A stretch of DNA of 64,000 bases from Trichococcus paludicola (GTDB lineage: Bacteria; Bacillota; Bacilli; Lactobacillales; Aerococcaceae). The position numbers and the translations under genes were made by a program. The notes under the pieces are model-generated. The model was given only the letters and a program-made list of their open reading frames with translations, ran no database searches and was not told where the DNA came from. Location: assembly GCF_003052295.1 (NCBI RefSeq), contig NZ_QBLC01000001.1, positions 434,001 through 498,000 on the forward strand. The letters run 5' to 3'. Position 1 is the stretch's first letter. Each line of letters begins with the position of its first letter. Below, one piece after another: positions 3,691 to 61,534 of this stretch.

Positions 3691-3820
3691 GCTCCGGTGA
3701 AGCAGCCGTCGCCGGAGGACAGCTCCTGCAATCTCCGTCAGCTCCGGCGAAGCACCCCCCACAGGAGCTGACGCTCCCGCAAAAAGTCTGAACTCCGGCG
3801 AGGCCTCCGTTCACCGGAGG
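3691..3820. repeat. Phased 50-bp hairpin array A (3 units)
   Basis: Left arms CTCCGG start at 3692, 3742 and 3793; right arms CCGGAG or CAGGAG start at 3712, 3762 and 3814. The period is 50 then 51 bp. The second unit extends outward to GTCAGCTCC against GGAGCTGAC. The array lies between the convergent terminators of the mutase and trans-sulfuration genes. It belongs to the same family as arrays at 13004, 14011, 26358, 36341, 46959 and 61405. Confidence 0.85.
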
Positions 3821-5746: not shown

Positions 5747-5824
5747 CGGTATTGTTTGCCCCACGATGAGCCCCGGAAACTCAATTGGATCAAACAGACA
5801 GAGAAGAATATGGAGGAAACAAAC
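5747..5824 (+). ncRNA. Putative L13 leader (ribosomal protein autoregulatory RNA)
   Basis: The leader of rplM folds into an outer stem (TTGTTTG with CAAACAG) and an inner hairpin (GAG CCCCGGAAA CTC), ending at the GGAGG site. Firmicute rplM transcripts carry a known L13 leader motif at this place; assignment here rests on position and stem-loop pattern, not a covariance search. Confidence 0.5.
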
Positions 5825-9961: not shown

Positions 9962-10855
9962 ATGGCTGAACCTATTTTGAAGGATCCAAGAGAGTTGTAT
10001 CACACTGGAAAATTTGCAGATCAGGATCAAGACACACCTGCTTTGCAAGATAAGATGCTTCCGAAACCCGATTGCGGGGAGGAAAGCTACGTAGGCAACC
10101 ACTTGCTGGAGAATCGCCGTGTATTGATCACTGGTGGGGATTCCGGAATCGGACGGGCTGCAGCGATAGCTTATGCCAGAGAAGGCGCCGATGTAGCGAT
10201 CCAATTTTTCCCTGGCGAAGAACGCGATGCAAAAGAAGTCGCTGATTATATAGAGAAGGCCGGCAGGAAGGCTGTCTTGCTTCCATACGACCTTCGCGAT
10301 GAAAGTAAATACCAAGAAATAATCGATAAAACAGTCGAAGCATTAGGCGGTTTGGACACACTTGTATTGAATGCCGCACAGCAGATTGCGCGGGAGTCCA
10401 TTTCGGAGTTGCCGTTGGAACAAGTCAAAGATACCTTCACGGTCAACATCATTTCGATGTTTGGTTTGGTGAAAGCTGCTGAGCCGCATCTGCCGGCGGG
10501 AGGCGCGATCATCACGACAACATCGATTCAGGCATACGATCCAAGTGCCCATTTGATGGATTATGCCGCAACCAAATCCGCAATCGTCAGTTTCACGATC
10601 AGTTTGGCGAAACAGTTCGCCAAAAAAGGCATCCGCGTGAACGGGGTGGCGCCGGGGCCAATCTGGACGCCGTTGCAATTGGATCATGGGCAACCGAGAG
10701 GTGCTTTGCCGGAATTCGGACAGAAAACCTTGTTGGGAAGAGCAGGGCAGCCAATCGAACTTGCGCATGTCTACGTTTTCTTGGCATCCAACAACGCCAG
10801 CTATGTTACCGCCCAAATCTATGGCGTTACCGGCGGCGACGTTATTGACCTTTAA
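9962..10855 (+). CDS. SDR-family oxidoreductase (YhdF/YghA-like)
   Basis: 297-residue short-chain dehydrogenase with the long N-terminal extension typical of the YhdF group. NAD(P)-binding GGDSGIGRAAA is near residue 60, then LVLNAAQQ, and the catalytic Ser-Tyr-Lys is carried by TTTSIQAYDP and MDYAATKSAI. The C-terminal Gly-rich end (GVTGGDVIDL) is normal. Many homologues belong to general stress regulons, but nothing here shows its substrate. Monocistronic. Confidence 0.85.
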   Translation: MAEPILKDPRELYHTGKFADQDQDTPALQDKMLPKPDCGEESYVGNHLLENRRVLITGGDSGIGRAAAIAYAREGADVAIQFFPGEERDAKEVADYIEKAGRKAVLLPYDLRDESKYQEIIDKTVEALGGLDTLVLNAAQQIARESISELPLEQVKDTFTVNIISMFGLVKAAEPHLPAGGAIITTTSIQAYDPSAHLMDYAATKSAIVSFTISLAKQFAKKGIRVNGVAPGPIWTPLQLDHGQPRGALPEFGQKTLLGRAGQPIELAHVYVFLASNNASYVTAQIYGVTGGDVIDL

Positions 10856-13003: not shown

Positions 13004-13131
13004 TCTCCGGCCGAGAGAACCTTCGCCGGAGATGCAATCCGATTTCATCACCAACTTCGGCGGACATCCACTGACCGGAGCTGAGGTCCTGAACATATCC
13101 GCTTCTCCGGTCAGGCAACCTTCGCCGGAGA
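13004..13131. repeat. Phased 50-bp hairpin array B (3 units)
   Basis: Left arms start at 13005 (CTCCGG), 13055 (CTTCGG) and 13105 (CTCCGG); right arms CCGGAG at 13026, 13075 and 13125. Exactly 50 bp between left arms. Unit 1 pairs TCTCCGGC with GCCGGAGA. It sits between the transporter terminator and the next promoter. Confidence 0.85.
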
Positions 13132-14010: not shown

Positions 14011-14138
14011 TCTCCGGCCAGGCGGGGCTGGCCGGAGCAGGGGAACAGAATATGGACTCAGCTCCGGTTGGCTGGTGCTCACCGGAGGACAAGTCCGGAT
14101 TGAACCCTATTCTCCGGTGAGGCTTGATTCACCGGAGC
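14011..14138. repeat. Phased 50-bp hairpin array C (3 units)
   Basis: CTCCGG at 14012, 14062, 14112; CCGGAG at 14032, 14082, 14132: period exactly 50 bp for both arms. The inner stem differs but stays paired: unit 1 CCAG with CTGG, unit 3 TGA with TCA. This is the most regular array in the window. Confidence 0.9.
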
Positions 14139-25344: not shown

Positions 25345-26316
25345 TTGTGGCTATTCGTCTTTTTATTCGTGGCGGCTTTCATCGCGGCCTTGTCCATGGG
25401 TTATGCCTCGCTTCCGTTGGACCGCATCCTACAGGTGCTGTCCGGGAACGGGGCTTTTAGGGAAAACTACGTCTTTTACCAGATCCGCTTGCCCCGGGCT
25501 TTGATATTGGCGATGGCCGGCGCCTGCCTGGCTAGTGCGGGCATCATACTGCAGACCTTGAGCAACAACGACCTAGCCGATTCGGGTCTCCTGGGCATCA
25601 ATTCCGGTGCCGGTCTCGGCGTGACGATCTTCTATCTGTTCGCAGGCGACAGCATACTGAAGTTTTCGGCGGCATTGCCGCTTATCGCCTTCATCAGCGC
25701 GCTGGTGGCCGCCTCCGCTGTTTATCTGCTCAGTTACAGCCGCAGCCATAAGCAGCATGCGATGCAATTGGTGGTCATCGGAGCGGGAATCTCCTCGGCC
25801 TTTTCGGGGTTGATCATCCTGCTGATGTCCTCCTCCGACCGGACCGACGTCAGCTTCATCACGGCTTGGATGTCGGGAAACATCTGGGGTTCGACCTGGC
25901 CGTTCGTGTTGACGATCCTGCCCGGGTGGCTGTTGGCAATGGGGATCCTCTTCCTGAAGGCCCCGACACTGAACATTTTGGCTCTGGGGGAGGAGACCGC
26001 TGCTGCATTGGGTTTGAAGCTCCGGAATGAAAAACTGCTCCTGCTGCTCTGCGCGGTCGCCATCGCTTCAGCGGCCATCTCTTTGACCGGCAACATCGGC
26101 TTCATCGGTCTGATGTCACCGCATATCGCCAGAAAACTGGTCGGCAAACGGCATGAACGCTACAGTTGGATTGCGCTGCTGATCGGCAGCATCATCCTGT
26201 TGAGCGCCGATGCGATCGGCCGCAAGGTGATGGATACCGCTTTTCCGACCGGCATCGTCGTTTCGCTGATCGGGGCGCCTTATTTCCTCTATTTGTTGTT
26301 AGGGCGGATGCGCTGA
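25345..26316 (+). CDS. FecCD-family iron transporter permease 2
   Basis: At least 323 residues, same family as the preceding permease: IRLPRALILAMAGACLASAGIILQTLSNNDLADS-like core and GLMSPHIARKLVGKRH coupling loop. The start is unusual: TTG 25345 is the first standard codon in frame but lacks a good ribosome site. A CTG at 25309 lies 8 nt after GGGGGG and would add twelve residues (a basic cytoplasmic tail), overlapping the previous gene by 8 nt. I give the conservative start. Confidence 0.85.
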   Translation: MWLFVFLFVAAFIAALSMGYASLPLDRILQVLSGNGAFRENYVFYQIRLPRALILAMAGACLASAGIILQTLSNNDLADSGLLGINSGAGLGVTIFYLFAGDSILKFSAALPLIAFISALVAASAVYLLSYSRSHKQHAMQLVVIGAGISSAFSGLIILLMSSSDRTDVSFITAWMSGNIWGSTWPFVLTILPGWLLAMGILFLKAPTLNILALGEETAAALGLKLRNEKLLLLLCAVAIASAAISLTGNIGFIGLMSPHIARKLVGKRHERYSWIALLIGSIILLSADAIGRKVMDTAFPTGIVVSLIGAPYFLYLLLGRMR

Positions 26317-26357: not shown

Positions 26358-26436
26358 CCTCCTGCCAAGCGGTCGCCGCGGGAGCAGACGGTCTGGATCC
26401 GGCGGCACCTCCCGGGAAGGCTCTCTTGACCGGAGC
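26358..26436. repeat. Phased 50-bp hairpin array G (2 worn units)
   Basis: Left arms CTCCTG at 26359 and CTCCCG at 26409 (50 bp apart); right arms CGGGAG at 26379 and CCGGAG at 26430. Arms are mismatched relative to other clusters, so this looks like a decaying member of the family. It lies between convergent genes. Confidence 0.6.
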
Positions 26437-35934: not shown

Positions 35935-36180
35935 CAAAAAACGACTATGAGCAAATGGTCTCATAGTCGTTCAAAACAGGCTGCTTAAGCTGAAGCGTTG
36001 CATCCGTATAGTGAATTCCACCAATTTGCCCCAACGTGAGAAGCTCACCGGACAAAGCTGGGCGGCTTTGTCCGACAGTGCCAGATTTATTCAACCTTGG
36101 CCCCAATACAGAGTATTTCGGCAGCAACACCTTTCAGGGAATCCCTTACTGATTGTTAACCGCGACCTCTTCATCACATC
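35935..36180 (-). ncRNA. Lysine riboswitch (L box) with terminator upstream of dapA
   Basis: Read on the minus strand, the leader has GATGAAGAGGTCGCGG, then CAGTAAGGG, CTGAAAGG, GCTGCCGAAAT, TTGAATAAAT and GCACTGTC in the order of the Bacillus lysC L box (AGAGGTGC, CTGAAAGGGG, GCCGAAGC, TTGAATAAAT, GGCTGTC). An intrinsic terminator (CGACTATGAG pairing CTCATAGTCG, then T-run) lies at 35935-35972. Confidence 0.85.
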
Positions 36181-36230: not shown

Positions 36231-36340
36231 TCATATTCTGAGTGGATGCTTAGAAATTCCTTTGAAAAAGATGGCAAAAAAGACACATACGTTTAAGGGA
36301 GGCAAGGCCGCAGCGGGCAGGCGGCCGAAAACCACAATGA

Positions 36341-36468
36341 CCTCCGGTGAAGGCAAGCCCCGCCGGAGAAGGGAATCGTAAGCGAGTTGTCCTCCGGCCG
36401 GGTCAGTCTCTCCGGAGGACAGCAATAAAACGGAACAGCATCTCCGGCGAGGACCGCCTGGCCGGAGA
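36341..36468. repeat. Phased 50-bp hairpin array D (3 units)
   Basis: CTCCGG at 36342, 36392, 36442 (exactly 50 bp); CCGGAG at 36363, 36412, 36462. Unit 3 pairs TCTCCGG with CCGGAGA. This is the only CTCCGG cluster between divergent genes (dapA and the VOC gene) rather than downstream of a gene. Confidence 0.88.
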
Positions 36469-36665
36469 TGACGAACCCATACCGTTCCCGTAAACATCCG
36501 GATGCTTCAAGGAACGCATATGCGCCGGCAATGTGATAAAATCAAATTGAGGAAACGCTTTTAAGGCAAGTCCAGAAAGGGATTCCGGAATGTTTTTTTG
36601 CAGGCCATCCGCGCAGAGATTATCTCCAGCGCACCGGCGAGGATGATGAGAGGACGTGAATAGCG

Positions 36666-46958: not shown

Positions 46959-47137
46959 ACTCCGGCGGGGCACTCCTCGCCGGAGCTAAGGCGAGCGCAA
47001 AGCCTTCACCTCCGACGAGCCCACGCTCGGCGGAGGACAGCCTGCGATTTCGCGCCCAGCTCCGGCCAACATTCGCTCACAGGAGCAGAGTAGATTACCG
47101 GAACCCCAACTCCGATAAGAAGGGCGCTCATCGGAGG
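46959..47137. repeat. Phased 50-bp hairpin array E (4 units, longest)
   Basis: Left arms at 46960, 47010, 47060, 47110 (exactly 50 bp each); right arms at 46980, 47030, 47080, 47131. Sequence varies while pairing is kept: unit 2 CTCCGACGAG against CTCGGCGGAG, unit 4 ACTCCGAT against ATCGGAGG. Between panE and pepF, same strand on both sides. Confidence 0.9.
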
Positions 47138-49410: not shown

Positions 49411-49665
49411 ACAAAGTCAGTGATGAAGAGAGTAGATCTGAATATTTTCTCCAGCGAGCCGGGACAGAGTGGAAGCCCAGCAGTAAAATATCAGATTGAA
49501 GCGCACTTCGGATGACGAAAAGGTGAACGTTCAGTAGCCTTTTACGCAATTTATGCGTTAATTTAATCGAGGTGGATTTGTTGTTTCACAGCAGATCAAC
49601 TAGAGTGGTACCGCGGAATCAAACATTGACCCGTCTCTTGTAGCAATACAAGGGGCGGTTTTTTA
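49411..49665 (+). ncRNA. T-box leader riboswitch, probably arginine-specific
   Basis: Full T-box: kink-turn helix AGTCA/TGAC, GATGAAGAGAGTA with the AGTA loop-E strand, AGCGAGCCGGG and GTGGAAGCCC of the distal stem I, antiterminator AGAGTGGTACCGCGG at 49603-49617 and terminator 49628-49664. The strand opposite AGTA reads GAAGCGCA (49498-49505). CGC (Arg, 49502-49504) precedes the usual A and the closing CTTC helix; GCG (Ala, one base upstream) is the alternative. Confidence 0.92.
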
Positions 49666-61404: not shown

Positions 61405-61534
61405 GCTCCTGCGAAAGGAGGCTTCGCCGGGGTTGGGCAGACATTTGAGGTGGCCTGCTCCGATGACCAAGGCTTCGTCGGAGGTGCGGCCGAAGGTTAC
61501 CGATGAACTCCGGCGAGCAGGGCCTCACCGGAGC
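61405..61534. repeat. Phased 50-bp hairpin array F (3 units) behind the defence operon
   Basis: Left arms CTCCTG 61406, CTCCGA 61458, CTCCGG 61508; right arms CCGGGG 61427, TCGGAG 61478, CCGGAG 61528. Periods 52/50 and 51/50. Unit 2 (CTCCGA with TCGGAG) keeps pairing despite base change. It starts 26 nt after the sngC stop codon. Confidence 0.8.

Follow-up and report, generated by a model that had tools for sequence, protein, structure and literature searches.

Phased arrays of symmetric dyads dispersed through Trichococcus genomes: candidate sites for a dimeric DNA-binding protein

Seven clusters of short, palindromic repeats lie between genes in a 64,000-bp stretch of the Trichococcus paludicola chromosome (contig NZ_QBLC01000001.1, positions 434,001–498,000; hereafter the window). 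The initial annotation had counted 21 units in these clusters, separated by 14 steps. Both counts were confirmed: a profile of the half-site, built from 106 units in the T. paludicola genome, returned 21 units at 14 bits or more and none in the reversed window, with unit starts one base off from those first given (Table 1). Twelve steps measure 50 bp, one 51 bp and one 52 bp, a weak unit at 26308 being left uncounted. Allowing one arm mismatch at most and 14–15 inner bases, the window has 16 sites, against 0.2 expected under an order-1 Markov model. At the 26359 array, three of the five genomes with an array at the same place were scored ‘same’, and G006 and SX930 differ at the first unit. The window also holds three Rfam matches at gathering threshold, and the divergent region of one of them, a lysine riboswitch, contains the 36342 array as well.

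Table 1. Dyad arrays and Rfam gathering-threshold matches in the window, numbered from its first base.
Feature	Position	Strand	Context and copies
L13 leader (Rfam)	5748..5800	+	
Lysine riboswitch (Rfam)	36033..36179	-	
T-box leader (Rfam)	49411..49641	+	
3-dyad array (units of 26, 26 and 27 bp)	3692..3819	.	Convergent gene pair; G006 and T. patagoniensis have syntenic copies
3-dyad array	13005..13130	.	Tandem genes, beyond terminator; syntenic in five genomes
3-dyad array	14012..14137	.	Convergent gene pair
2 clear dyads, with a degenerate one on the left (26308)	26359..26435	.	Five genomes with an array at this position
3-dyad array	36342..36467	.	Insertion spans about 36289–36494
4-dyad array (the finding initially given)	46960..47136	.	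Orthologues, module swap, empty site, expansions
3-dyad array, canonical subfamily member	61406..61533	.	Convergent gene pair

Read inwards, the half-site is S W N C T C C G G Y S A R, and two half-sites make one dyad of 26–27 bp. The usual element comprises three dyads over about 127 bp: among 73 clusters (orthologues included), 56 hold three units, 10 hold four to 13, and 7 hold one or two (five of these are single). The 161 steps within these clusters measured 50 bp (93), 51 bp (44), 52 bp (14), 47–49 bp (5) and 38–39 bp (5), which bears out the 50-bp peak, and the 161 spacers were 24 bp (111), 25 bp (36), 23 bp (5), 20–21 bp (4) or 11–12 bp (5) long, that is, 23–25 bp in 152 cases. A canonical 127-bp element was obtained by aligning 15 members picked for mutual similarity; homology among them fades at the outer arms, with a weak extension on one side. 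Long arrays are built from a four-dyad repeat with steps near 51, 50, 50 and 38 bp (about 190 bp) and reach 23 units. A CRISPR array, which has near-identical repeats with unique spacers beside cas genes, does not match when judged on the repeats: these units vary in both halves.

The spacers had been described as not conserved; they do have little fixed sequence, but in one subfamily they are partly related. In all 97 orthologue pairs compared, their length is 23–25 bp. This bound is weaker than it looks, because indels per substitution are not rarer in the spacers (0.08) than in the flanks (0.054) and the calling of arrays itself prefers steps close to 50 bp, and spacer length is weakened accordingly as proof of phasing. 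Steps of 50 bp do not correspond to an integral number of 10.5-bp helical turns, and unit length switches between 26 and 27 bp even from one orthologue to another, which is unusual for a rigid dimer.

Further copies had been predicted elsewhere in the genome, and in the T. paludicola assembly (1.94 Mb, 63% complete) the exact arms occur 52 times, against twice for the reversed pattern. Among 41 genomes searched for exact arms, 13 of 13 from Trichococcus were positive, with 28–267 sites each (reversed control 1–7). None of the 12 other genera searched in its family had such a site, and 3 of 16 outside the family but in the same order had one or two each, by a pattern that could miss diverged relatives outside Trichococcus. 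On this exact-arm evidence the family spans the genus and is specific to it. Protein identity to the T. paludicola DNA was 93–96% for eight near records and 80% for T. palustris; G009, probably T. palustris, was the sole genome with no match to window DNA. One of the eight, titled ‘Sedimentibacter sp. SX930’ (L043), is Trichococcus by 96% protein identity and synteny, and its title looks wrong. In open-licence papers we found no account of this repeat: ‘repeat’, ‘palindrom-’ and ‘intergenic’ are absent from the main text of a comparative-genome paper on the genus (PMC6950789), and ‘Trichococcus’ is absent from a survey of REP sequences (PMC12306157).

The units had been read as hairpins in which structure rather than sequence is conserved, and this part of the interpretation failed. 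The inner stem, said to stay paired, is broken at pairs 7 and 8 in 37% and 40% of 106 units. In 65 units of 26 bp from the T. paludicola genome (27-bp units excluded), pairing reached 83.3% against a shuffled mean of 82.9%, with 154 of 500 shuffles as high, and it was not clearly above shuffles on any of five measures; slid partners paired at 31–48%, as in any palindrome. Covariation across the 106 units exceeded z = 2 only at pair 10 (z = 2.2) and at pair 4, where a single odd unit was responsible. At positions 4–9 of orthologues, 140 one-sided changes made or broke a pair, against 7 compensatory doubles; the other changes were 41 one-sided and pair-keeping, 48 one-sided from unpaired to unpaired, and 24 other doubles, all of them pairwise counts rather than independent events. 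RNA-structure conservation was rejected on these grounds. The initial annotation had named three findings that would speak against its own interpretation, namely no further copies in the genome, no significant covariation and no 50-bp peak; the copies and the peak are present, and covariation is the one that fails. A dispersed, phased family with many copies in the genome and the genus is supported, without the claim of structure over sequence.

The left and right half profiles are nearly identical, and the halves are uncorrelated both in T. paludicola (z = 0.1, 106 units) and in other genomes (z = 0.1, 92 distinct units chosen by exact arms alone); when 214 units were pooled, some position pairs showed association (positions 3, 5 and 9, p<1e-4; position 4, p = 0.004). 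At position −2, two bases outside the stem, A or T occupies 204 of 212 halves in T. paludicola and 183 of 184 in other genomes, where all four A/T combinations are common. A hairpin reading leaves the independent halves and the A/T rule unexplained. A two-fold symmetric site in double-stranded DNA would account for equal, independent halves and the outer A/T, as well as for slow arms and free spacers, to which we return below.

The same features weigh on the idea that these are REP/REPIN-type hairpins, moved by a RAYT (a Y1 transposase) and acting as single-stranded DNA or cruciforms. The arrays are indeed palindromic, extragenic and partly clustered, and Y1_Tnp domains occur in 12 of 13 genomes, counted without separating RAYTs from IS200-type genes. 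However, inner-stem mismatches go uncompensated, the A/T rule sits outside the hairpin, and T. ilyis (98% complete), which carries 218 exact-arm sites, gave 0 Y1_Tnp matches at E = 0.001. The RAYT-like partner suggested at the outset was rejected on this last result, and we consider the reading as a whole very unlikely.

Orthologous arrays changed unevenly along their length, with arms diverging three times less than spacers. Across seven orthologue groups of two to six genomes each (g5 and g7, with two members each, carry little weight), from which copies too changed to be aligned through would escape, divergence was 0.077 in the arms, 0.105 at position −2, 0.160 in the inner positions, 0.233 in the loop, 0.245 in the spacers and 0.163 in the flanks, which are partly coding. 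Spacers diverged about as much as the flanks adjacent to them (0.248 and 0.278). The array caller dropped no copy scored ‘same’, because each copy so scored by BLAST (array plus 500-bp flanks) contained a called array.

Arrays were also gained, lost and rearranged. The 36342 array is common to T. paludicola and T. alkaliphilus and cleanly absent from the same place in eight other genomes, compared with which 202–211 bp replace 10–17 bp; T. ilyis was scored empty at this site, with a less clean left boundary. Inspected by eye, this only clean insertion showed neither a target duplication nor convincing terminal repeats. SX930 lacks 150 bp, in unit register by eye, where six other genomes carry an array, and T. 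patagoniensis differs from G001 by about 200 bp, of which some 150 bp starts and ends at CTCCG (by eye). At the 46960 locus, changes again in unit register by eye leave 3 to 13 units depending on the genome and, in SX930, swap every unit after the first dyad; G006 was scored ‘same’, and T. pasteurii has no array there. T. patagoniensis has a TnpB-like insertion (IS605-type, by eye; L048, before position 10001) where others carry the 46960 array. In T. flocculiformis (L045) a run of N lies inside it with repeated units on both sides, probably marking a longer, unassembled array. Arrays would spread as copies of a three- or four-dyad element, and they change by whole units.

Such behaviour suits a selfish composite interspersed repeat (MITE-like, as BOX or EFAR) with no host function, in which the dyads would be transposase sites and the pattern of context and terminus would reflect tolerated insertion. 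Paralogous arrays are 61–80% identical, with homology that often stops at the outer arms, and the insertion confined to two species, the module swaps and the gain and loss of units all point the same way, as do pneumococcal repeats, likewise over-represented between convergent genes (PMC3049150). Slow arms beside fast spacers in resident orthologues are not expected of dead copies, however, and the 36342 insertion lacks the duplication and terminal repeats noted above. No mobilising enzyme was found, and one 127-bp member had no match in 72,556 plasmid and 50,697 phage records; spread by plasmid, phage or virus was rejected on that search and on one exact 27-mer pattern, likewise without a match. 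We regard a purely selfish repeat as a real possibility, though an improbable one. Constraint that persists after insertion argues instead for a host role.

Gene context was classed for 34 of 38 arrays in three genomes, 4 lying at stretch edges: 16 were between convergent, 15 between tandem and 3 between divergent genes, whereas background gaps of at least 150 bp, array-holding gaps included, were convergent in 26, tandem in 80 and divergent in 39 of 145, with genes predicted by our own simple finder in both counts. At 47 array-facing gene ends, a terminator was found before the array in 32, after it in 8 and nowhere in 7; among array-free gene ends, 59 of 110 had a terminator within 130 bp. 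Protection of mRNA 3′ ends, one of the roles proposed initially, is unlikely for most arrays because the terminator precedes the array at those 32 ends. An RNA element, its hairpins located at the 3′ ends of mRNAs to protect the transcript or to be processed, would agree with the location of arrays 3′ of genes, with the 15 ends at which a terminator follows the array or was not found, and with the folding of the 46960 array, which is better than 200 of 200 shuffles (z = −3.6). It is difficult to reconcile with termination upstream of most arrays, with covariation no greater than in shuffles, with arrays lying in both orientations, and with the lack of any Rfam match on a window array at gathering threshold, by which known Rfam families were rejected. 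We find this reading highly improbable.

In two complete genomes, the listed exact-arm sites leave a site-free zone of 600–870 kb that contains the terminus. Among the sites listed, G001 has none between 479,593 and 1,346,275 (T-type on both strands and C-type on the forward strand across the zone, C-type reverse over a stretch that ends short of it), and G006 has no T-type site, the one type listed, from 2,539,636 round to 216,669. Profile units (14 bits) were absent from eight 8-kb samples within the G001 zone and six within the G006 zone, and present in five of ten 8-kb G001 samples outside the zone or at its edge. GC skew places the terminus at 0.70–0.81 Mb in G001 and 0.12–0.22 Mb in G006, inside the zone or near its edge, and the depletion is lopsided about it. 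For T-type sites merged within 5 kb, placement p was 0.0107 in G006 and 0.0004 in G001; for both types in G001, merged at 5, 20 or 50 kb, it was 5e-5, 6e-4 or 0.037, respectively. Contigs to which G001-zone DNA maps in three other genomes are consistent with this: the one in T. collinsii is at least 717 kb long and carries none of the 53 T-type sites listed for that genome, the one in K1Tr is free of sites between 30.5 and 725 kb among the matches listed, and the one in SX930 is free of them from 189 kb to 554 kb or beyond. Common ancestry keeps all these genomes from being independent tests. Regions poor in repeats need have no such role: Pseudomonas fluorescens SBW25 has 60 ‘repeat deserts’, the largest reaching 176 kb (PMC2718517).

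Terminus depletion, together with distance from promoters, argues for a role at the scale of the chromosome. Binding of arrays between convergent genes by DNA gyrase, or by HU or another general nucleoid protein, would explain the convergent enrichment, the position beyond terminators and the origin-side bias, and some BIMEs of E. coli have been proposed as gyrase- or HU-type sites between convergent genes. But a strict dyad, a base-specific arm and independent halves are more specific than we would expect for gyrase or HU, and topology sites of this kind seem unlikely to us.

Noc (TIGR04285) was over its cut-off of 315 in 0 of 13 genomes, with a best score of 243.7 bits, and was rejected as the binder; with this model 12 genomes showed a single strong locus each and the incomplete T. 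paludicola genome none, and the matching copy in G001 passes the ParB domain cut-off. NERD nuclease genes lie amid long arrays twice in G006 and once in a like region of G001. Of 30 NERD loci, units occur in 22 and are lacking from 8 (the three from G009 hold 0, 0 and 1), and no NERD gene was found in the incomplete T. paludicola genome, so the case for a NERD nuclease gene as array partner is weakened. Some 85–125 kb off one edge of the site-free zone, both complete genomes have array-saturated regions, with 57 units in 20 kb of G006 (2436001–2456000; L220) and 86 in 30 kb of G001 (1470001–1500000; L198–L199). Both regions hold NERD and EAL genes, and L198 also holds AbiE genes.

We favour, at an even chance of being right, the view that the arrays are dispersed, BOX-like clusters of symmetric double-stranded DNA sites for a putative dimeric protein, possibly organising the chromosome. 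The two-fold symmetric dyad would be read by this protein, perhaps cooperatively, along arrays in which dyads repeat about every 50 bp, usually three at a time, with spacers of 23–25 bp. Most arrays lie past gene ends and few between divergent genes, with few or none in the zone containing the terminus, and their likely role would be nucleoid organisation or occlusion, or supercoiling. ‘Nucleoid-protein sites’, among the roles listed initially, fits best. A more specific version, in which 50-bp-phased arrays beyond terminators and off the terminus zone would form a chromosome-positioning system whose putative dimeric reader does a job like that of Noc or SlmA, is a doubtful extension by analogy. 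Repeats in bacteria tend to be classed as parasites or RNA hairpins; this Trichococcus-wide interspersed repeat displays its probable mode of reading in independent half-sites, a strict outer A/T and constrained arms. An array is ready bait for its protein, and could test whether systems of sites kept out of the terminus exist beyond those of Noc and SlmA.

Several known systems resemble the arrays in part. REP, BIME and REPIN sequences are palindromic extragenic units that form clusters and lie 3′ of genes, as the Trichococcus units do; unlike REP/REPIN with a RAYT, the arrays abound in T. ilyis with no Y1_Tnp found, and they follow a symmetric site rule of the double-stranded type. EFAR of Enterococcus faecalis is palindromic, modular and variable in length, with 16 module types, and its insertion replaces a short target. 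Trichococcus arrays share this plan, in another lactic acid bacterium and with a short target replaced, but have one module with an independent-half-site rule. The sites of Noc and SlmA are single short palindromes read by known proteins. They occur around most of the chromosome and are absent from the terminus region (PMC4331003), and listed exact-arm sites are similarly missing from the terminus region in two complete genomes and contigs of three others. In contrast to those sites, Trichococcus has arrays of three or more dyads of 26–27 bp and no Noc over cut-off, and because of this and of a binder that is itself putative, the likeness is one of analogy, not membership. BOX of Streptococcus pneumoniae (boxA-boxBn-boxC) is a composite intergenic element with a tandem internal module, over-represented between convergent genes (PMC3049150). 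Unlike BOX, Trichococcus arrays have no distinct end modules of the boxA and boxC kind, every unit being the same dyad at a fixed step of about 50 bp; the terminal inverted repeats and target duplication described for BOX were not seen, and homology mostly ends at the outer dyads (15 members). Like BOX, they are dispersed and intergenic, and carry a tandem module in variable number.
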